From positions 1-31,552 of IMG/VR virus record IMGVR_UViG_3300048918_000254: a stretch of DNA of 31,552 nucleotides, one strand, 5' to 3'. The DNA comes from a virus. Of this stretch, positions 2,859 through 24,473 are shown in pieces. Numbering within the stretch: position 1 is the first letter of the stretch; each line of letters starts with the position of its first letter. The translations under genes were made by a program, and so were the position numbers. The notes beneath the pieces were generated by a model. That model was not told the DNA's origin. It searched no databases and worked only from the letters and a program-made list of their open reading frames with translations.

Positions 2859-3125
2859 ATGTTCGTCGTCGAAAAAGATCCGAGCACCATACGCCAATAC
2901 GGAATTGATCTCCGGCGGCAACTCGCAAGCGGCGAGACGATCACGGGGCTCTTTGTGTCCGCGTCGCGCGTGACGACTGATAGCGGGACGATCACGGGGA
3001 CGCAATGCCTGGCGCTATGCTCCGGCGGGGAACCGGGCGCGCTCGCCGAGGTGCATTTCACCTATACGACGAGCCTCGGATTTACCGATACGCGCACGAT
3101 CTATCTGAGCATCATTGAACGTTAA
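2859..3125 (+). CDS. Fibre-tail adaptor-like small protein
   Basis: 88 aa. The layout matches small phage proteins grouped as fibre-tail adaptors: an N-terminal 'KDP..I..YGIDL...LASGETI', a middle beta segment, then 'CSGGEPGALAEVHFTYTTSLGFTDTRTIYLSI', a beta-sandwich ending in a strand. Family knowledge suggests it joins the fibre to the tail. It directly follows the fibre-like gene (stop codon, then ATG) and is the last rightward gene before a strong bidirectional terminator. Family assignment rests on pattern memory and should be treated as probable. Confidence 0.55.
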   Translation: MFVVEKDPSTIRQYGIDLRRQLASGETITGLFVSASRVTTDSGTITGTQCLALCSGGEPGALAEVHFTYTTSLGFTDTRTIYLSIIER

Positions 3126-3148
3126 AAAGCCCCTTGCGGGGCTCGTTT
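3124..3148. terminator. Bidirectional intrinsic terminator
   Basis: A 6-bp perfect stem (AGCCCC at 3128-3133, TTGC loop, GGGGCT at 3138-3143) has a run of A's on its left side and TTTT on its right, so it can end both the rightward tail transcript and the leftward transcript of the gene at 3152-3400. It lies exactly between two converging genes. Confidence 0.85.
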
Positions 3149-3151
3149 TAC

Positions 3152-3400
3152 TTAAGCTCTGTTCAACTTTTCGAATGCGTCGATTGCTTGCTCGCGTGTT
3201 ATTTTTTGATACTTTTCCATGACACGCCAAGTTTTTATCATCTTACCGGCGCTGTAATTCGTACAGAGAACATACAGGCCGAACGATTCGCCGGTAAACT
3301 CACAAACACGTTTAGCGGCAATAATCTTTTCACCTTTTGCGTTCTTACCTTCGCAACGTGCCGAACCGAATTTGTTAGTGAGGGTGTAAAGGGTTGCCAT
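3152..3400 (-). CDS. Small protein of unknown function under its own operator-promoter
   Basis: 82 aa, unrecognised. It is basic and soluble, with three Cys residues and a C-terminal helical end (KYQKITREQAIDAFEKL). The ATG has a good GGAGAAA Shine-Dalgarno. It is a single-gene unit: the palindromic promoter at 3437-3465 lies just upstream and the terminator at 3124-3148 just downstream. This gene-plus-own-promoter layout resembles an accessory cassette. No function is proposed. Confidence 0.75.
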   Translation of the reverse strand: MATLYTLTNKFGSARCEGKNAKGEKIIAAKRVCEFTGESFGLYVLCTNYSAGKMIKTWRVMEKYQKITREQAIDAFEKLNRA

Positions 3401-3436
3401 AATTTCTCCGGTCCGGTTTCGTGTTGCGATGTAGTT

Positions 3437-3465
3437 ATATTAGCCACTGTTGACGGCTCCGTCAA
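3437..3465 (-). promoter_or_regulatory. Palindromic operator-promoter P1 (leftward)
   Basis: The palindrome TTGACGGCTCCGTCAA occupies 3450-3465 with perfect 7-bp arms. Read leftward, one arm is the -35 box TTGACG (3460-3465), followed by a 17-bp spacer and the -10 box TAATAT (3437-3442), upstream of the 82-aa gene. The rightward reading has no good -10 box. A protein bound to the palindrome would cover the -35 box. Confidence 0.8.
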
Positions 3466-3489
3466 TAACTATTTATCTCCGGGGAAACC

Positions 3490-3687
3490 CTACTGCACCG
3501 TTATAGGTTGCTCGATCACCGCGCGCAGTTCGCACGTCAACTCGATTACGCGCTCCGCATCGATCGATTCGTGCACGGCGACGCGATACGCCTCGATCAC
3601 GGAGTCATTCGAGATATAGCACTGAGCGGATCGGCGCGCGAGGGGTACGCGCACAATCCAACTCACGCAGACGTGGTAACAGTTCAT
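3490..3687 (-). CDS. Small hypothetical protein, last gene of the micro-ORF operon
   Basis: 65 aa, unrecognised, Cys-containing (C3, C7, C23), mixed alpha/beta in appearance (VIEAYRVAVHESIDAERVIELTCELRAVI). The ATG overlaps the TGA of the upstream gene by 4 bp (ATGA), a typical coupling arrangement that supports the start. It ends the leftward operon begun by promoter P2. Function unknown. Confidence 0.6.
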   Translation of the reverse strand: MNCYHVCVSWIVRVPLARRSAQCYISNDSVIEAYRVAVHESIDAERVIELTCELRAVIEQPITVQ

Positions 3688-3896
3688 CCGTAGTATTTTG
3701 ACCGAAGTTGCTCGATCTCTTTGTCGCGATCTTTCAGTCGCGCCTCGAGCGTCTTGATTTGCGCTTGCAACACGGCTTCCCGATCGATCGCGTGTTGCGC
3801 CAGGATGAACATCCCATCCGAGCGCGGAAACTCGCTAAACACGCCGGGAGCGATCGCGCGCAGATCCATCCGATGCCATTGAAAAGTGGCGGCCAT
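3684..3896 (-). CDS. Small protein with C-terminal coiled coil
   Basis: 70 aa. The N-terminus (MAATFQWHRMDL) is aromatic; about residues 32-67 form a charged heptad-like helix (EAVLQAQIKTLEARLKDRDK...), likely a coiled coil. The start is the ATG at 3896 because a strong GGAGGGGG Shine-Dalgarno lies just upstream; an in-frame GTG at 3911 overlaps that Shine-Dalgarno and is less likely. It overlaps the next gene by 4 bp, and the upstream membrane-protein gene ends 2 bases before its start. Function unknown. Confidence 0.65.
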   Translation of the reverse strand: MAATFQWHRMDLRAIAPGVFSEFPRSDGMFILAQHAIDREAVLQAQIKTLEARLKDRDKEIEQLRSKYYG

Positions 3897-3898
3897 TT

Positions 3899-4084
3899 TT
3901 ACCCCCTCCACGCGCAGAGTAAGCCGAGGATGATGCCGGCGGCGAGCGTGCCGAGCACCGTGAACGCGCGATCGAATTTGCGGCGATAACCGATCTCGAT
4001 AATGCGCGACTGATGGTACGGACCGAAAACATCTTGTATTGTGCGCGGCGTCGGTCGGTAATGCTTAATATCTTTACTGAACAT
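3899..4084 (-). CDS. Small membrane protein, C-terminal TM
   Basis: 61 aa. A basic/aromatic N-terminal half (about residues 1-38) is followed by one hydrophobic segment (about 41-58: TVLGTLAAGIILGLLCAW) and a short RG end, so it is probably anchored with the N-terminus in the cytoplasm. Its ATG overlaps the end of the 26-aa ORF upstream. It belongs to the leftward chain of micro-ORFs. Function unknown; holin/antiholin or membrane-stress roles are possible but unsupported. Confidence 0.65.
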   Translation of the reverse strand: MFSKDIKHYRPTPRTIQDVFGPYHQSRIIEIGYRRKFDRAFTVLGTLAAGIILGLLCAWRG

Positions 4085-4154
4085 ACAGAAACACCCCGTA
4101 GAGTATCGCCGCGCAGGCGATTATTATGGAAAGAATGCGCACGATTAGCACCAT
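4074..4154 (-). CDS. 26-aa predicted TM micropeptide
   Basis: Reading the minus strand gives MVLIVRILSIIIACAAILYG followed by VFLYVQ and TAA: a single hydrophobic helix. Its ATG overlaps the end of the 38-aa ORF upstream by 10 bases, and its stop overlaps the start of the 61-aa gene downstream by 11 bases, so translation can pass along the chain. No clear Shine-Dalgarno is seen, consistent with coupling. It is too short for ordinary gene callers. Confidence 0.5.
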   Translation of the reverse strand: MVLIVRILSIIIACAAILYGVFLYVQ

Positions 4155-4261
4155 GCAATTTCAGAGAAATCGACGCATCCGCAAATCGCCCAATTCTGAG
4201 CGTCGCGCCATTTACATGCGATGAGGTAATGCGTATCGAACACAGCGAGACGAGTAAGCAT
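4145..4261 (-). CDS. 38-aa Cys/Trp-rich micropeptide
   Basis: Minus-strand ORF starting MLTRLAVFDTHYLIACKW and ending CVDFSEIAWC. It has four Cys and three Trp residues in a pattern like small phage proteins with short W/C-rich beta modules. The ATG overlaps the stop of the 25-aa ORF upstream (TAATG) and its stop overlaps the start of the 26-aa ORF. No known function. Confidence 0.5.
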   Translation of the reverse strand: MLTRLAVFDTHYLIACKWRDAQNWAICGCVDFSEIAWC

Positions 4262-4338
4262 TACGCGCCCCGGATAAATGCCAGAATTACGAACGCGAAT
4301 ACGCCCCAAGCCAGGAACGCGTAAATACTGGAGTGCAT
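4261..4338 (-). CDS. 25-aa predicted TM micropeptide, first gene after P2
   Basis: Minus-strand ORF starting MHSSIYAFLAWGVFAFVILA and ending FIRGA, then TAA. It is almost entirely one hydrophobic helix with a positive end. It is the first ORF downstream of promoter P2. The only Shine-Dalgarno-like bases upstream (AGAGAA) lie in the 3' arm of a leader hairpin (4345-4382), so translation may depend on that structure opening. Function unknown. Confidence 0.5.
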   Translation of the reverse strand: MHSSIYAFLAWGVFAFVILAFIRGA

Positions 4339-4344
4339 TTTGAT

Positions 4345-4382
4345 TTCTCTGTAATCCCGCCGGCGTGACGGGTTACAGAGAA
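4345..4382 (-). promoter_or_regulatory. 5'-leader hairpin of the micro-ORF operon
   Basis: Arms TTCTCTGTAA (4345-4354) and TTACAGAGAA (4373-4382) pair perfectly and are extended by CCCG/CGGG with one bulged base, leaving a 9-nt loop. The hairpin starts at about the predicted transcription start of P2 and ends 6 bases before the first ATG; its 3' arm in the RNA contains the only Shine-Dalgarno-like AGAGAA. It could protect the 5' end or limit ribosome access. Inference only. Confidence 0.5.
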
Positions 4383-4410
4383 TATTAGGCGCTATTGACG
4401 GTGCCGTCAA
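4382..4410 (-). promoter_or_regulatory. Palindromic operator-promoter P2 (leftward)
   Basis: The palindrome TTGACGGTGCCGTCAA is at 4395-4410. Leftward -35 TTGACG (4405-4410), 17-bp spacer, -10 TAATAT (4382-4387). It serves the chain of small genes from 4338 down to 3490 and lies just after the stop of the DNA polymerase gene, which reads the same way. Confidence 0.8.
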
Positions 4411-4432
4411 GTATGAAGATACGATAAATCGA

Positions 4433-6304
4433 CTAGGTAGAAACCCCTAGTTCGGAGAGCATCGCGTATGCTTCGCGCACGTACCAGGCGTAGTCGAGAT
4501 CCTCGGGGAACGCGTCGACCATATCCATCATTGGCACGGCCCCTTGTGATCGCGGTACGAGGTGCCCGTTCTTTGCGTTATTGATCGCGCCCATCTCGCC
4601 GGCAGCGTAATACCATCGAACGGACTTGCCTAGATACCGATCACCTTTCACGGCGCCGCCGGTGACGTTGCGGATCGTCAGAAAGCGCCGCACGTCGCGA
4701 CACTCGCCGATGGTTTGTTCGATCGGGATCCAGCGCGCGAGACGGTTCGCCACGGCGTCGACACAAATCATATTGGCGGGGCTTTTGGCGAGCCCGGCAT
4801 CCGCGAATACGCCTTTCGTCTTAACCTCGCCGTCAGGTTTGAGCGCGACATAATTGTTCACGTCGCGACTATAGAGCGCCGCGTAATCGGTGAATTCCAT
4901 ATTGAACCCGGTGCGCGCTTCCCATTCTTTGATGAGGCGATCGCGCACAAATTCGAGTCCGACGGGGCACTTGATAACGATCCCGTCCGTGTTCGCCGAG
5001 ACGACGGGTATCGCGGCGAGCTCGAGCGCCTCGATTAGCATGAGGAGCGATAATTGGCCCGTGATCGTCGTTTGGATCAGCAACGTCGGGGAAAAAAGCT
5101 TGCTGTATTTCGAGCCAAATTTACCGAACGATCCGTTCAAAACAATCTTGAACCCCTCGTTCAGCGTGGCGAAGCGCTTCCCCTCCGGCGTACCCTTCAG
5201 CACTTTCGCTTGCGTCTTTGCGTGAACGCGCGTGTCGAAAATTCCACGGTACACGGTGAGAAACGTCTCCCCCATTTGCGCGGGGAAATAGCGGCCGTTG
5301 AGAATGATCGTCGGATAAAAACTCGTGACGTCCGCGTCGCGCAGTGTGAATGTGCCGTCGCATACGTGCGAGACGGTGCTCTCCGATGAGTGGAGTCCGC
5401 CGATCCCCATGCGGTAAACGCTTGTGCCGATCGCTACCTTCGCATCCTTCAATTCCTTCGGCATTTGCACGCCGGTTTTTACATCCTCGTCGTCTATCGC
5501 TTGCTCTTTGTCCGTCACGGTAAATTGAGCATTGCGAACCATATCGAGCACGGATTGCAATTGCTCCGTTTGGAATCCGACGAATGCGGGGATCTCGTAA
5601 CGGAACGTTGTGCCGTGTTTCCACGTCGGTTTTTGCACAGTGAACGGCATCTCGGCGGCGATCACGGCTTCCGCAATTTGCGCGTCGGATTTGCTGCGGA
5701 GATCGATCTTATATTTCTCGCTCAACTCCGCGCGCAACACGAGGCGCGGCGCGATGGCGTGCATGAGATCGAGCGTCGTGATGCGATCGTTCTGGCAGTA
5801 TCCGACGATCGCGGGGCGCTCCTCGACGGGTAGCGGCTGCGTGAAGTCGACGGGCGATTCCTGCAACTTCTGAGAGTGCAGGCGGCCGCCGTACGTTTTG
5901 AGCGAGATCCGCACACCTGGCGCGGGCTCCATCACGTCGACGTGATCCCATTGCGGCTCGGGGAGATTGAGCAGCCGGTAAATTTCCCACGGCTTTTTAC
6001 CGCCGACGATAATCATATCGTTGAGTTGCTTTAACTGCGCGCACGTGAACCCGCGCAGCGCCGCAACGATCATCGGGAGATCGTAATTGTTGCCGTTGTA
6101 AGTTATGAGCGTGAAGCAATCGAGCGCACGCTGCGCGCCGGCAATATCGAGCGGATGCCCGTCGAACATCTCAAAATCGATGTGCTCGCCGCTCTCCGTC
6201 GTGAGCCCGAGCAACCAGTAATCGACGAAGCATTCCGTATCGCACGCGGCGACGGGTAGCTTTGCGAACGCGTGCCTACTGATAGGCGGAGGGGGGATAA
6301 ACAT
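4433..6304 (-). CDS. Family B DNA polymerase with 3'-5' exonuclease
   Basis: 623 aa; replicates phage DNA. Exonuclease motifs: Exo I DTE (D22, E24), Exo II NGNNYD (70-75), Exo III YCQND (169-173). Polymerase motifs: A DVTSFYP (325-331), B KIVLNGSFG (386-394), C ANTDGI (437-442). Motif C differs from the usual DTDS: the first Asp is Asn and the last Ser is Gly, but the second Asp, the metal ligand in known family B enzymes, is kept (D440). The distance between motifs A and B is short, so the large TPR1 insertion of protein-primed phi29-type enzymes appears absent. It pairs naturally with the primase-helicase at 20072. Length is short for family B but usual for phage versions. The Shine-Dalgarno is weak (GGGAAAG), so expression may depend on read-through from upstream. 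Confidence 0.9.
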   Translation of the reverse strand: MFIPPPPISRHAFAKLPVAACDTECFVDYWLLGLTTESGEHIDFEMFDGHPLDIAGAQRALDCFTLITYNGNNYDLPMIVAALRGFTCAQLKQLNDMIIVGGKKPWEIYRLLNLPEPQWDHVDVMEPAPGVRISLKTYGGRLHSQKLQESPVDFTQPLPVEERPAIVGYCQNDRITTLDLMHAIAPRLVLRAELSEKYKIDLRSKSDAQIAEAVIAAEMPFTVQKPTWKHGTTFRYEIPAFVGFQTEQLQSVLDMVRNAQFTVTDKEQAIDDEDVKTGVQMPKELKDAKVAIGTSVYRMGIGGLHSSESTVSHVCDGTFTLRDADVTSFYPTIILNGRYFPAQMGETFLTVYRGIFDTRVHAKTQAKVLKGTPEGKRFATLNEGFKIVLNGSFGKFGSKYSKLFSPTLLIQTTITGQLSLLMLIEALELAAIPVVSANTDGIVIKCPVGLEFVRDRLIKEWEARTGFNMEFTDYAALYSRDVNNYVALKPDGEVKTKGVFADAGLAKSPANMICVDAVANRLARWIPIEQTIGECRDVRRFLTIRNVTGGAVKGDRYLGKSVRWYYAAGEMGAINNAKNGHLVPRSQGAVPMMDMVDAFPEDLDYAWYVREAYAMLSELGVST

Positions 6305-14241: not shown

Positions 14242-14553
14242 ATGAGCACACGACTCGAACCCAAGACGCGAGAGACGCAACTATTAAAGGCGGCGATCAT
14301 CCTCGCAAAGCGCATCGGCTATGCGAACATCACGCGCGACGCGATCGCACTCGAGGCGGGCGTCGCGTCCGGGCTCGTCTCGTATCGTCTCGGCAATATG
14401 GCGAGCATCCGCACGGCCGTGATGCGCCAGGCTGTGCGTGACGGCGTAATCGAGATCATCGCGCAAGGGCTCGCCGCCGGTGACGAACAAGCAAAGAAAG
14501 CGCCGCCGGAGATGCGAACTCGAGCGGCGCAATACTTGATGCGCGGGAAATAA
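14242..14553 (+). CDS. Mini TetR-type transcription regulator
   Basis: 103 aa. The N-terminal ~65 residues are a TetR-type DNA-binding domain: LLKAAIILAKRIGYANIT (14-31), helix-turn-helix TRDAIALEAG-VASG-LVSYRLG (31-51), then an ASIRTAVMRQAV helix. TetR proteins are usually about 190-220 aa; here only about 40 residues follow, so the ligand-binding and most dimerisation helices are absent. TetR-type domains bind palindromes as dimers, and this protein has an own promoter carrying a variant of the palindromic operator that is repeated across the window, making it the best candidate regulator. An ACGGAAAT Shine-Dalgarno precedes the ATG; the gene is followed by a strong terminator. Confidence 0.75.
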   Translation: MSTRLEPKTRETQLLKAAIILAKRIGYANITRDAIALEAGVASGLVSYRLGNMASIRTAVMRQAVRDGVIEIIAQGLAAGDEQAKKAPPEMRTRAAQYLMRGK

Positions 14554-20071: not shown

Positions 20072-22600
20072 ATGCTTGACTTGCAAGCGTTGCGCAACGC
20101 ACTAAGCGGCCCATTTGTCGCTTTCACCGCATATAAACAATTTATTACCTTTCGTCTGACGTGGAACGCCGAGAAAGGCAAATACGACAAAATCCCCCTA
20201 GGGAGCAGTACGGACTCGTCGACTTGGCTCGATTGGAGCACCGCGCTCGCGCTCGCCGAGCAGCAAGGGCTCGGCGTCGGCTTCGTATTTAGCGAGGCGG
20301 ATCCGTTCTTTTTCCTCGATATCGACGGCGCGCACGACGGCGCATCATGGTCGCCGCTCGCGTCTGAACTGTGCCAGCAATTTAGCGGATGTGCCGTCGA
20401 GGTGAGCGCCTCACAATCCGGGCTCCATATTTTCGGCACGTACACGGGGCAGGCGCCGGAGCACCGCAGCCGCAATGCCGCGCTACGGCTCGAGCTCTAT
20501 CACACGGGGCGCTTTGTGGCGCTCACGGGTATGGGCGCCGTGGGGAGCGCAGCACACGCCGCGGACGCCGCGCTCGCGCAGGTAATTAGTGATCGCTTCC
20601 CGCCGGCCGCACCTGGCGCAATTGCCGCGCTCGATTGGGATGCGGGTCCGGTCGACGGATGGAGCGGGCCGACGGATGATGCGGAGTTGCTCGCCACGAT
20701 GCGCCGCAGCAAGCCGACACCCGGATTCGGCGGAACGGCACCGGCGCACGTCTCGCATTTCCTCGATATGGATATCCCCGCGCTCGCGAAGCGCTTCCCT
20801 CCGCAGACACCCGGCAAACCGTTCGATGCGTCGGCCGCGGATATGAGCTTCGCCTCGACGCTCGCATTTTGGACCGGGAAAGATGCCGCGCGTATGGTGC
20901 GCATCCTCCGCGCGTCGCCGATGTGGCGCGATAAATGGGAACGCGAGGAATACCAATCGAGCACCATCCGCGCGGCGATCGGGTCGACGCCGAATGTTTA
21001 TACGAACGTGCGTGCCGTCGCTGTGGATGGTGCGCTGGACCGCAGTATCGCCCCTGTTCCCGTTGTACGTTCCGCGTTGATCGCCGCGTATTCCGCGCGG
21101 ATGAATCCCGATACGGGGCGCACACCTGACATGCTCTACGCACTGGCGAAAGAGATCGCCGCGGACAATAACGTTCAGCGCGAGGATAAGCGCGGACCGA
21201 TCGCCGAGAATTTGAAAGCGGCGTTCCAGAATTGCGGCGTGAAATACAACACGGCGGCCGTGCGCGAAATGGTGTGTCCGAGCACGGTGCGCCTCGCCGA
21301 TGAATACGGATGGTTGCAAGGATGGGTATTTCTCACGACGGGCGATCAGTTTTATAACCCGGCGTACGGCGAGCCGATCAGCGCCACGGCGTTTAACGCA
21401 CTGTTCAATCGCTACATCGCGCCGGCGGAAGGCAAGCAACCGAACGCGGCGAAGGATGCCGTTGACGTGCTGAACATCCCCGTCGTATCGCAGCGCATGT
21501 ACGTGCCGTTTTATCCCCTCATGTTTGAAAATCGCGGGATCCGGTGCATTAACTCGTACCGGCCGGAGAGCGTGCCGACGGGCCGTGTGTGGAGCAACCA
21601 GGCTGAAAGCGATGCGGTTACAACCGTGCTCTCCCATTTGTCGACGCTCCTCGGCGATCAATACGAGACGTTCATCGCGTGGATCGCGCACAACGTGCAA
21701 AAGCCGGGCGTCCGGATACGCTTCGCGCCGCTCATCAAAGGTACGCAGGGTGATGGTAAGAGCGCCATTACCACGCTGCTTAAAGCCGTGATGGGCGATG
21801 AGAACGTGACGAGCATCTCGAATGCGGAGGTGAAGTCAGAATTTACCGATTGGGCGTGGAATGCGAGCGTCGGCGTGATCGAGGAGCTCCGGATGGAAGG
21901 GGATCGCCGGCACGCTATCGCGAACGCTGCAAAGACGCTCATCACGAACGATTACACCAAGATCATCCCGAAGGGCTCGAAGGGTTTCGAAGTGATCGCG
22001 ACGATGAATATCGCCGGGTACACGAACCACGAGGATGCGGTTCCCCTGGATGACGACGATCGCCGCTGGTGGGTCATTTTCTCGCCGTTCAAACGGTATT
22101 CCGACGTCGAGGCGAAATTCGGAGATCCCGTCTCGTACTTCGATCGGCTGTTCCACTCGATCAGCAACTACGCGCCCGCGTTGCGCTTTTACTTTGAGAC
22201 GTACGCGATCCCCGCATCGTTCCGGCCGAACGGTCGTGCTCCGGAGACGGCCGCCAAGCGGGCGATGATGCACGCAGGCGACGGAGATTTGATTACGGAC
22301 GCGAACGGGTTGCTCGAAGTGGGCGCCGCGGGCGTAACGCGTGATGTGATCTCCTCGCGTCATTTCCTCGCGGAGCTCGCGTCGTTACGCAATGAAAAGC
22401 CGCTGCAAACCCGCGCGGCCGGTCGGCTAATTGAGACGCTCGGATTTCATCGCGTCACTAAAAATGTGAGATGGAACGGAGATTTTCAAAAATTATGGAC
22501 GAAACCAGGAATAACGCACGATACGGATAATTTGCGCAAAATTTTGGACGAATCTTTAATTTTATCGGCCGGTTTCGGGCAGTGTGGCCAAAGCGTATAA
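20072..22600 (+). CDS. Primase-helicase (D5-like SF3 with primase-polymerase domain)
   Basis: 842 aa, bifunctional replication protein. N-terminal primase-polymerase-like part: FLDIDGAHDG (about 82-91) with the two metal-binding Asp residues, SGLHIFG (about 116-122), LYHTGRFVALTG (about 144-155). The helicase part carries Walker A GTQGDGKS (about 556-563), Walker B-type VGVIEEL (about 600-606) and sensor ATMNI (about 643-647), followed by an arginine region (DDRRWW). The length is usual for phage D5/VapE-type proteins. An AT-rich repeat region right after the gene is a plausible site of action (origin). The Shine-Dalgarno is GGAA with good spacing. It pairs with the family B polymerase at 4433. 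Confidence 0.85.
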   Translation: MLDLQALRNALSGPFVAFTAYKQFITFRLTWNAEKGKYDKIPLGSSTDSSTWLDWSTALALAEQQGLGVGFVFSEADPFFFLDIDGAHDGASWSPLASELCQQFSGCAVEVSASQSGLHIFGTYTGQAPEHRSRNAALRLELYHTGRFVALTGMGAVGSAAHAADAALAQVISDRFPPAAPGAIAALDWDAGPVDGWSGPTDDAELLATMRRSKPTPGFGGTAPAHVSHFLDMDIPALAKRFPPQTPGKPFDASAADMSFASTLAFWTGKDAARMVRILRASPMWRDKWEREEYQSSTIRAAIGSTPNVYTNVRAVAVDGALDRSIAPVPVVRSALIAAYSARMNPDTGRTPDMLYALAKEIAADNNVQREDKRGPIAENLKAAFQNCGVKYNTAAVREMVCPSTVRLADEYGWLQGWVFLTTGDQFYNPAYGEPISATAFNALFNRYIAPAEGKQPNAAKDAVDVLNIPVVSQRMYVPFYPLMFENRGIRCINSYRPESVPTGRVWSNQAESDAVTTVLSHLSTLLGDQYETFIAWIAHNVQKPGVRIRFAPLIKGTQGDGKSAITTLLKAVMGDENVTSISNAEVKSEFTDWAWNASVGVIEELRMEGDRRHAIANAAKTLITNDYTKIIPKGSKGFEVIATMNIAGYTNHEDAVPLDDDDRRWWVIFSPFKRYSDVEAKFGDPVSYFDRLFHSISNYAPALRFYFETYAIPASFRPNGRAPETAAKRAMMHAGDGDLITDANGLLEVGAAGVTRDVISSRHFLAELASLRNEKPLQTRAAGRLIETLGFHRVTKNVRWNGDFQKLWTKPGITHDTDNLRKILDESLILSAGFGQCGQSV

Positions 22601-22867
22601 AACATTAGCCACGGCGCAAACCCTTGTGGGGTAAGGCTCTCAGGGTTTGTGGCTAAATGTGGCTAATGTTGTTACCTCACCCTTCCTATATACACATATG
22701 CGTGTCACTAGACGTACTTTATAATTATGTAATTTTTATTTTTATTTACACTCTACCTTTTATCTTTTATTAGCCACATTAGCCACAAAAGAAAAAGAGT
22801 AATAGAATCAAAGAGTTACAGCGTGGCTAAAGTTGTGGCTATAACGTGGCGAATGTTTATTAGCCAC
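22584..22867. repeat. TTAGCCAC/GTGGCTAA repeat cluster in an AT-rich gap (candidate origin)
   Basis: The 8-mer occurs at 22605-22612, 22770-22777, 22779-22786 and 22860-22867 (TTAGCCAC) and at 22649-22656, 22659-22666 and 22823-22830 (GTGGCTAA); near matches (one mismatch) are at 22584-22591, 22835-22842 and 22846-22853. Some pairs are tandem at 9- or 10-bp spacing. An AT-rich core (about 22690-22770) sits between two groups. The first group also forms a large inverted repeat, TTAGCCAC...AAACCC/GGGTTT...GTGGCTAA (22605-22656). This combination of iterons plus AT-rich core next to the primase-helicase is typical of replication origins. Confidence 0.6.
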
Positions 22868-22942: not shown

Positions 22943-23713
22943 GTGGCAGAATTAACGCAAAAACAAATCGACTTTGCTCGGAATTACATCGAGTCCGACC
23001 GGAACGCATCGAAGGCGTATCGGTGGAGTTACGACGCCACGAACATGACGCGCGAGACGATCGCGCAGTGCGCCTCACGTCTCCTGGCGGATCCCCGCGT
23101 GAAAGCGGAGATCGATCGCATCTCTCATAAAGCCGCGGAGCACGTCGAATTTACGGCGGCCGACTGGTTGCGCCATAACGTCGAGATCGCGACGGCCGAT
23201 CCGAACGAGTTGATCCGAACGCGGCTAATTTGCTGTCGACATTGCTACGGCGCGAACGGCGCGTTCCAGTGGCGTGACGAGATGGAATGGGCCGATGCAT
23301 GTGCGGAGTCATTTGCGGCCGCGGCGCGCGCCGAGCGCGAGGGAAGCACGGAGACTGTGCCGATCCCTGGGAATGATGGGGGCTATGGATTCGATCGTAC
23401 GCGGCCGCCACGGGGCGAATGCGAGCGTTGCGGGGGCGAAGGTACGTATGAGGTGTTTGTGGCCGACTCGGGGCGTCTGGCGGGCCCGGCGCGGCGTCTC
23501 TATGCCGGCGTGAAGCAAACGAAGTACGGCGTCGAGGTGCTTATGCGAAACCAGGATCTAGCGCTCAAAAATATCGGTAATTATTTCGGATTAAATAATC
23601 TGCAGCGTCACGAGATCACGGGGAAAGACGGCGGCCCGATTATTTCGGCGCAGTCACTTTCAGACGAGCACCTCGCGCAAATTATCGCGAAGCACGAAGC
23701 GGGTAAGGTATGA
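22943..23713 (+). CDS. Terminase small subunit (TerS) with zinc-finger insert
   Basis: 256 aa. N-terminal ~60 residues match Terminase_2-type small subunits, which bind DNA at the packaging start: LTQKQIDFARNYIESDRNASKAYRWSYD-like start and a helix-turn-helix in ETIAQCASRLLADPRV. An insert carries two CxxC pairs (CRHC near 94-97 and CERC near 157-160), a likely zinc-binding element that is not in simple TerS proteins. The C-terminus is Asp/Glu and Asn rich (NYFGLNNLQRHE) with the GKDGG... element seen in many TerS. GTG start; it follows the candidate origin and is well placed before the large subunit, though separated from it by one gene. Confidence 0.75.
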   Translation: MAELTQKQIDFARNYIESDRNASKAYRWSYDATNMTRETIAQCASRLLADPRVKAEIDRISHKAAEHVEFTAADWLRHNVEIATADPNELIRTRLICCRHCYGANGAFQWRDEMEWADACAESFAAAARAEREGSTETVPIPGNDGGYGFDRTRPPRGECERCGGEGTYEVFVADSGRLAGPARRLYAGVKQTKYGVEVLMRNQDLALKNIGNYFGLNNLQRHEITGKDGGPIISAQSLSDEHLAQIIAKHEAGKV

Positions 23714-23795: not shown

Positions 23796-24473
23796 ATGGG
23801 TAAACTTTATTTCAACGGCGCGCAGCAAATCGTTTTCCGGTCGGATGACGATCAATCCGGCAATCCGGATGTGCGCACAATCAAAGCGTCGAAAATTGCA
23901 GGGCTCGTCGCTTCCGGCGCATCGGTGGATCCGAGCGCGGAACAGGATTACGAGCAACCCGTCGACGAGCCCGGCACGGATGACGCGCCGGTGACGGCAG
24001 AAGGCGCCACGCTCCCGACGGATGCCCGGCTCCCGCCGAGCGACGAGCAGCCGAGCACGACGCAAACGTTCGTTACGGATCCGGTGAGCGGCCAAACCGT
24101 CGTGCAAACCGATTCGCAAAATCCCGTGCAGCCGGAAGCGCCGATCGCTATTCCCGTACCGCCGGCACAATCCGCCGAAGATCAAGCGGCGATCGTTCAC
24201 GCGGGGATCCTGCAGCGCGCATCGGAAATCGGGAGCGCTCCGCAAGTTGCCGCATCCGGCGGGGCATCGGGCATTGTGATCGATCCGACGCAACACGCAT
24301 CGGCGAAGGATCAATTTGCGGGCGTCATGGCGAAGTTGCACGAGCTCGAAGGCGAAGGGGTCGACGAGTTGCGCAACACGCTCCGCGCGATCGGAACCCT
24401 CCTCCACTTGCATAGCCAGGCGTCGCACGATGCCGAGCACACGGGCAATTACAAGGCGGGCGATACGCAGTAA
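23796..24473 (+). CDS. Acidic protein of unknown function between the terminase genes
   Basis: 225 aa, unrecognised. N-terminal ~50 residues form a small globular part (MGKLYFNGAQQIVFRSDDDQ, RTIKASKIAGLVASG); the centre (about 50-150) is acidic and Pro/Gln/Thr-rich, and the C-terminal third is alpha-helical (FAGVMAKLHELEGEGVDELR, LLHLHSQASHDAEH). It could be a virion or scaffold-associated protein. The Pro-rich linker resembles those of other proteins in this phage. Own promoter at 23726. No function assigned. Confidence 0.6.
   Translation: MGKLYFNGAQQIVFRSDDDQSGNPDVRTIKASKIAGLVASGASVDPSAEQDYEQPVDEPGTDDAPVTAEGATLPTDARLPPSDEQPSTTQTFVTDPVSGQTVVQTDSQNPVQPEAPIAIPVPPAQSAEDQAAIVHAGILQRASEIGSAPQVAASGGASGIVIDPTQHASAKDQFAGVMAKLHELEGEGVDELRNTLRAIGTLLHLHSQASHDAEHTGNYKAGDTQ

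Follow-up and report, generated by a model that had tools for sequence, protein, structure and literature searches.

A candidate replication origin directly downstream of an NrS-1-type primase-polymerase gene in a tailed phage

What is the function of the short repeats that are packed between a primase-helicase gene and a terminase gene in the IMG/VR virus record IMGVR_UViG_3300048918_000254? The stretch of DNA that was analysed, referred to here as the window, is the entire 31,552-base record, which comes from environmental DNA and is probably a fragment. An initial annotation had read the repeats, at positions 22584-22867, as the iterons of a replication origin.

The repeat array and the adjoining gene

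Seven exact copies of the 8-mer TTAGCCAC and three copies with one mismatch were found at positions 22584-22867, in agreement with the seven exact and about three near copies, in both orientations, that had been annotated. When the reverse complement of this word, GTGGCTAA, is used to define the strand, the exact copies are located at 22605-22612 (-), 22649-22656 (+), 22659-22666 (+), 22770-22777 (-), 22779-22786 (-), 22823-22830 (+) and 22860-22867 (-), while the copies with one mismatch are located at 22584-22591 (GTGGCCAA, +), 22835-22842 (GTGGCTAT, +) and 22846-22853 (GTGGCGAA, +). A single further exact copy of TTAGCCAC/GTGGCTAA was found outside the array in the 31.5 kb, at position 3440. 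In 5,000 dinucleotide-preserving shuffles of the segment 22580-22880, the most frequent 8-mer reached a maximum of 3 copies against the 7 observed, and the most frequent 7-mer a maximum of 4 copies against the 8 observed.

The layout of the array is two copies of GTGGCTAA (the left inner pair, at 22649 and 22659), a spacer of about 100 bp, two copies of TTAGCCAC (the right inner pair, at 22770 and 22779) and then more copies. The spacer (22671-22769) is the AT-rich stretch that the annotation had noticed and is a candidate melting region; its AT content is about 72%, increasing to about 88% in its best 40 bp (22715-22754), against 42% in the locus. The larger inverted repeat that had been placed at 22605-22656 is also present, but it is longer, forming a potential DNA stem-loop at 22601-22670 with the outer arms AACATTAGCCAC/GTGGCTAATGTT and the inner stem CAAACCCT/AGGGTTTG. 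This stem-loop (-20.6 kcal/mol, z -7.05) was equalled by 0 of 200 shuffles, and it is built partly of opposite iterons, the remainder being the CAAACCCT/AGGGTTTG stem. The Rfam search gave no match. The gap had been described as free of genes, which holds except for the copy at 22584-22591; since this copy lies within the last codons of the primase gene, whose stop codon is at 22598-22600, the array is not wholly in the gene-free gap.

The gene that ends in the array (20072-22600, + strand) encodes a protein of 842 aa, the proposed initiator. Its Pfam matches were PF22763 NrS1-1_pol-like_HBD (1.2e-19), DUF5906 (1.4e-14) and VapE-like (3.1e-6), and phmmer matched it to the NrS-1 primase (7rr4/6a9w, 1e-21), the NrS-1 C-terminal region (6k9e, 9e-12) and the SaPI5 primase-helicase (7ola, 2.6e-14). 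The AlphaFold2 model (mean pLDDT 88) consists of a primase-polymerase (PrimPol) domain, a helix-bundle domain (HBD), a helicase domain and a C-terminal winged helix, and with Foldseek the whole model matched the NrS-1 C-terminal region (6k9c, 1.1e-19) and SaPI5 7ola (1.1e-8). The annotated name, D5-like primase-helicase, was right with respect to the D5/SF3-like helicase domain, but the protein is not simply D5-like; the combination of PrimPol, HBD and helicase domains makes it an NrS-1-type PrimPol.

The residues D83, D85, S112, G117 and H119, presumably the catalytic residues of the AEP fold as judged from knowledge of the family, were invariant in 43 aligned relatives and correspond to the DxD and SxH-type motifs of this fold. 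The HBD (aa 254-311, 20831-21004, +), located by the PF22763 match, corresponds to the template-reading domain of NrS-1-type PrimPols. The SF3/D5-like helicase core (aa 556-665, 21737-22066, +), located by the DUF5906 match, contains a Walker A motif, GxxGxGK, of which G557, G560, G562 and K563 were invariant in 43 relatives. The C-terminal winged helix predicted by AlphaFold2 (aa 727-839, 22250-22588, +), the proposed iteron reader, has the secondary-structure order H-E-H-H-E-E-H, with a recognition helix at aa 780-789 and a wing at aa 798-806. When this domain was compared alone with Foldseek the matches were weak, none with E < 0.001, and the top ones were mostly winged-helix domains.

The next gene downstream, outside the candidate origin, encodes the terminase small subunit TerS (22943-23713, +; PF03592, 7.4e-14), and it is followed by one ORF and by TerL. 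The ORF separating TerS and TerL (23796-24473, +) had no PHROG match. The phage also encodes a gp2.5-like SSB, an exonuclease-family protein and a DNA polymerase; the gene of the latter (4433-6304, -) matched phrog_1252 (2e-179) and had no Pfam match at 1e-3.

Repeat arrays after the PrimPol genes of relatives

No relatives were retrieved from viral contigs when the PrimPol of the window was used as a single query sequence, and alignment-based searches were needed to find them. We compared 227 PrimPol loci from viral and genome contigs, non-identical at the gene end and with enough downstream sequence. At least five copies of one 7-mer were present near the PrimPol stop, in the 400 bp from -30 to +370, at 35 of the 227 loci, and upstream of the gene at two. 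The FastTree tree placed the window in a clade of 27 loci with a support of 100. The absence of the repeat beside the primase genes of relatives had been named in the annotation as grounds for rejecting an origin; arrays directly 3' of PrimPol were present in 25 of the 27 clade members, some of them (e.g. L090, L093 and L141) called by eye and with fewer exact copies. The other two, L091 and L142, had no recognisable array after PrimPol; in L142, three CCCAAAAATCCCGCCACA-like repeats, which do not make a clear iteron array, were seen at about +150 to +260 past the stop. Arrays were rare outside the clade (3 of 31 chosen loci). Pseudomonas phage Psp6 is a further locus with an array, at about 22.99-23.21 kb, and no array was found in the gap past PrimPol in PEi21, SppYZU01, Scuro, Milano, KsaM-C1 and pKp383.

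The repeat word varies from phage to phage (GGTTACA, GGTCCCA, GGTAACA, GGTCACA, CCATACA, CATTACA, GTGGCTA; words other than the GTGGCTAA of the window include GGTTACAAG and GGTCCCAAG) while the layout is constant. The spacing of 7-10 bp within pairs recurs among the relatives despite the replaced iteron, and the AT-rich spacer is about 70 bp long in the Silvanus/L027 group, as against 105-125 bp in the L010 group and the window. In Stenotrophomonas phage Silvanus, whose array is at about 40.86-41.06 kb, 7 of the 8 copies of GGTTACA found in a scan of all but about 2 kb of the genome lie in the array. Opposite iterons give most relatives a hairpin potential as well; it is reminiscent of the stem-loop origin of pRN1 (PMC4234260), but it results partly from the inverted repeats themselves. 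The annotation had recommended a search for the same 8-mer array beside the primases of related phages; the array and its position recur, but the spelling of the 8-mer is specific to each lineage, so a search for the identical 8-mer would miss the arrays of the relatives. Candidate origins that a fixed-motif search misses can be found by looking directly behind the PrimPol gene for any repeated word, whatever its spelling.

Several other features were observed past these genes. The sequence CCCTT-N9-GGCTCTCAG was seen by eye in the window (22623-22645) and, as the reverse complement and with equal spacing, past the PrimPol stop of L010, whose iterons are different; it is possibly a second conserved origin element. 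Perfect 9-bp tandem repeats follow PrimPol immediately in L242 (+26 to +134 of the stop), L256, L240 and L244, which are chromosomal and prophage-like, and they are arranged in two inverted blocks in three of these four loci. More distant PrimPols on archaeal and Bacillales chromosomes, at the loci L268 (Haloterrigena), L273, L275 and L280 (Bacillales), have arrays of GTGTAAA or AGTAAC-type repeats after the gene. The Psp6 primase (L002) is annotated as two overlapping ORFs, 2959-4614 and 4584-5501, which probably represent a single PrimPol interrupted by a frameshift or a sequencing error. High-copy repeats located further past PrimPol in the sister lineage were examined in seven loci and rejected as arrays, being mostly coding, with pentapeptide or Ala/Pro repeats (L003, L012, L021, L061 and L087), while those of L018 and L073 were not clearly coding. 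Genes with pentapeptide repeats of the ADLRGANL type lie a few hundred bases past PrimPol in several phages of this lineage, as in L003 (5918-6496), L021 (8598-9427) and L012 (8975-9558).

The protein part that tracks the repeat, and other readings of the array

The part of PrimPol that follows the repeat was sought in ten loci with closely similar PrimPols, in which one iteron class has a single member. The sisters L130 and L107 have different iterons (GGTCCCAAG and GGTTACAGG, respectively), and their identity is 94% in the primase, 99% in the HBD and 95% in the helicase, with the linker also inside the 94-99% range, as against 80% in the C-terminus. When L098 is compared with L130, the primase is 76% identical while the helicase and the C-terminus are both 100% identical, and the iteron is identical. 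Mantel correlations between iteron sharing and local protein similarity in the ten loci were about 0 for the primase, HBD and helicase (aa 1-690), 0.38 for aa 691-750 and 0.71-0.75 (p<0.002) for aa 751-875. In a wider set of 24 more distant loci, where a sharper signal had been expected, the C-terminus gave a trend that was not significant (partial r 0.19, p 0.06).

Twenty-three alignment columns are pure for iteron class, 14 of them in the winged helix, and 11 of the 12 columns that separate the multi-member classes CC, AA and TA are located there by hand count. The wing position corresponding to N798 of the window is Q, L, V or F when the middle of the iteron is CC, AA, TA or CA, respectively. 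The nn of GGTnnCA switches in concert in most copies among these ten loci while shared spacer blocks are kept, which block recombination alone explains poorly. Part of the correlation could nevertheless stem from recombination tracts carrying both the iteron and the winged helix, since the coding region adjoins the array. The C-terminal winged helix is likely the part of PrimPol that reads the iteron, and the co-variation makes the primase-helicase the likely partner of the repeats, as had been annotated. For the window, a long branch with about 29-33% identity to the clade, the pairing of iteron and protein is for this reason inferred from the clade.

It is conceivable, though doubtful, that the switching of iterons is adaptive, the iteron word and the wing having been replaced together several times in phages with 84-94% identical PrimPols. 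If it is, it would perhaps protect the phage from co-infecting phages or satellites that have the same origin and could take over its replication, and it would provide a natural code linking wing residues to iteron bases. The close relatives with swapped iterons supply natural pairs between which binding and replication could be exchanged.

Four other readings of the array fit the relatives less well than an origin does. The iterons could be single-stranded template or priming sites read by the HBD, as the NrS-1 polymerase reads TTTGGTTA and GTGG, its experimentally found sites (PMC8718748). This looked strong in the window alone, where GTGG is contained in GTGGCTAA and TGTGGCTA has six of the eight letters of TTTGGTTA, and relatives with GGTTACA share GGTTA with the NrSPol site, but it failed on the relatives: GGTCCCA and CCATACA iterons have no NrSPol motifs, HBD similarity does not track the iteron in the close set, and L130 and L107 differ in their iterons with HBDs that are 99% identical. 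The NrS-1 phage contains only two sites of this kind, and no array (PMC7102993). We judge this reading very unlikely, but priming at GTG-type sites within a melted core is compatible with iterons bound by an initiator.

A cos or pac packaging site, with the repeats bound by TerS, is also very unlikely. TerS starts 75 bp past the array in the window and also follows the array in the L010 group; however, where TerS lies elsewhere the array is still found beside PrimPol. The gene after the array is a lysis gene in Silvanus and, as judged by inspection, also in L027 and L112, and the TerS and TerL genes of Silvanus are about 40 kb from the array along the linear record. The correlation of TerS similarity with the iteron in the ten close loci was weak and not significant (r 0.24, p 0.067), unlike that of the PrimPol C-terminus.

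Operators for a phage regulator, controlling the packaging operon or the PrimPol promoter, are highly improbable as the main role of the array, which may still have a secondary regulatory one. The array does sit between two operons, and the early region has a small TetR_N-like HTH gene (14242-14553), but this gene was not found in the flanks of about 4 kb around the PrimPol genes of the L010 group, promoter and terminator scans were no better than shuffles, and the downstream genes vary while the array stays with PrimPol. A cluster of host DnaA boxes (TTATNCACA) has almost no probability: TTAGCCACA is one base away from TTATCCACA, but TTATNCACA, by which a DnaA-box origin is recognised, has no match in the window, and unrelated repeats (GGTTACA, GGTCCCA) occupy the identical layout in the relatives.

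A proposed origin and its relation to known systems

The computational comparison establishes the array, its position, its constant layout with changing sequence and the co-variation of iteron and winged helix. The architecture, together with the homology to SaPI/PICI origins, makes it very probable that replication starts at the array. We regard it as highly likely that 22584-22867 is a replication origin which would work as follows. The C-terminal winged helix of the PrimPol-helicase would bind the 8-bp iterons in their double-stranded form, a step that is well founded in the precedents of SaPI Rep and Cch2 (PMC6092414, PMC7581432). Two oppositely oriented helicase rings would be loaded by the inverted pairs that flank the AT core, the core would melt, the PrimPol and HBD domains of the same protein would lay the first primers, and the phage DNA polymerase and SSB would extend them in both directions. 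Binding, the loading of two rings, melting, priming and bidirectionality are what we infer.

GTGG and GTGA are priming sites of the NrSPol type, GTGG being efficient (PMC8718748), and by inspection such sites are present in several cores. The block AGGTGGTCATCAT/AGGTGGCCACCAT in the middle of the AT core, which contains GTGG, is kept in all ten close relatives (e.g. at about +135 to +150 in L101). The GC skew of the window and of Psp6 does not turn at the array, which neither supports nor refutes an origin there.

The origin design of SaPIs and PICIs, described as unique to those satellites, would by this comparison extend to complete tailed phages, one clade of which carries it beside NrS-1-type PrimPols, with the C-terminal winged helix as the likely origin reader. 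The basis of origin recognition is not clear for NrS-1 (PMC7102993), and the sequence motifs for it are not yet identified in pRN1 (PMC4234260).

Four systems can be compared with the window. The NrS-1 system has the same protein family across the PrimPol, HBD and helicase domains, but there are two 8-nt template sites in the NrS-1 genome (PMC7102993) as against an iteron array here, and the window phage, Psp6 and Silvanus encode a separate DNA polymerase as well. ORF904 of pRN1 likewise combines an AEP primase, an SF3 helicase and a winged helix, and the required origin element 3' of its gene is a stem-loop (PMC4234260), comparable in position to the strong stem-loop of the window; however, no iterons were found in pRN1, whereas iterons dominate in the window and its stem arms are partly inverted iterons. 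In SCCmec, the isolated C-terminus of Cch2 binds the putative origin, which has short AAGTG repeats directly downstream of the gene (PMC7581432). The window shares the position of the repeats and would likewise have a C-terminal reader, but Cch2 is a helicase on its own and has three repeats, while in the window the PrimPol and helicase are fused and ten repeats lie in both orientations.

The closest likeness is to the SaPI/PICI rep-ori of staphylococcal pathogenicity islands and Gram-negative PICIs; in SaPIs, Rep reads iterons directly downstream of its own gene via its C-terminal domain (PMC6092414, PMC7581432). The window PrimPol is homologous to the SaPI5 primase-helicase, and the array, which is found where PrimPol ends (22600) in the window and at the corresponding place in the relatives, is positioned immediately 3' of the primase-helicase gene as the SaPI/PICI origin is 3' of the primase-helicase/rep gene. 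The repeat sequences are not alike, and the window protein is an NrS-1-type primase that contains an HBD. A PICI is a small satellite without structural genes of its own, whereas the window belongs to a tailed phage and carries TerS, TerL and portal genes. The origin proposed for the window would work like a PICI rep-ori, with which it shares position and layout, in a phage that is not a PICI.
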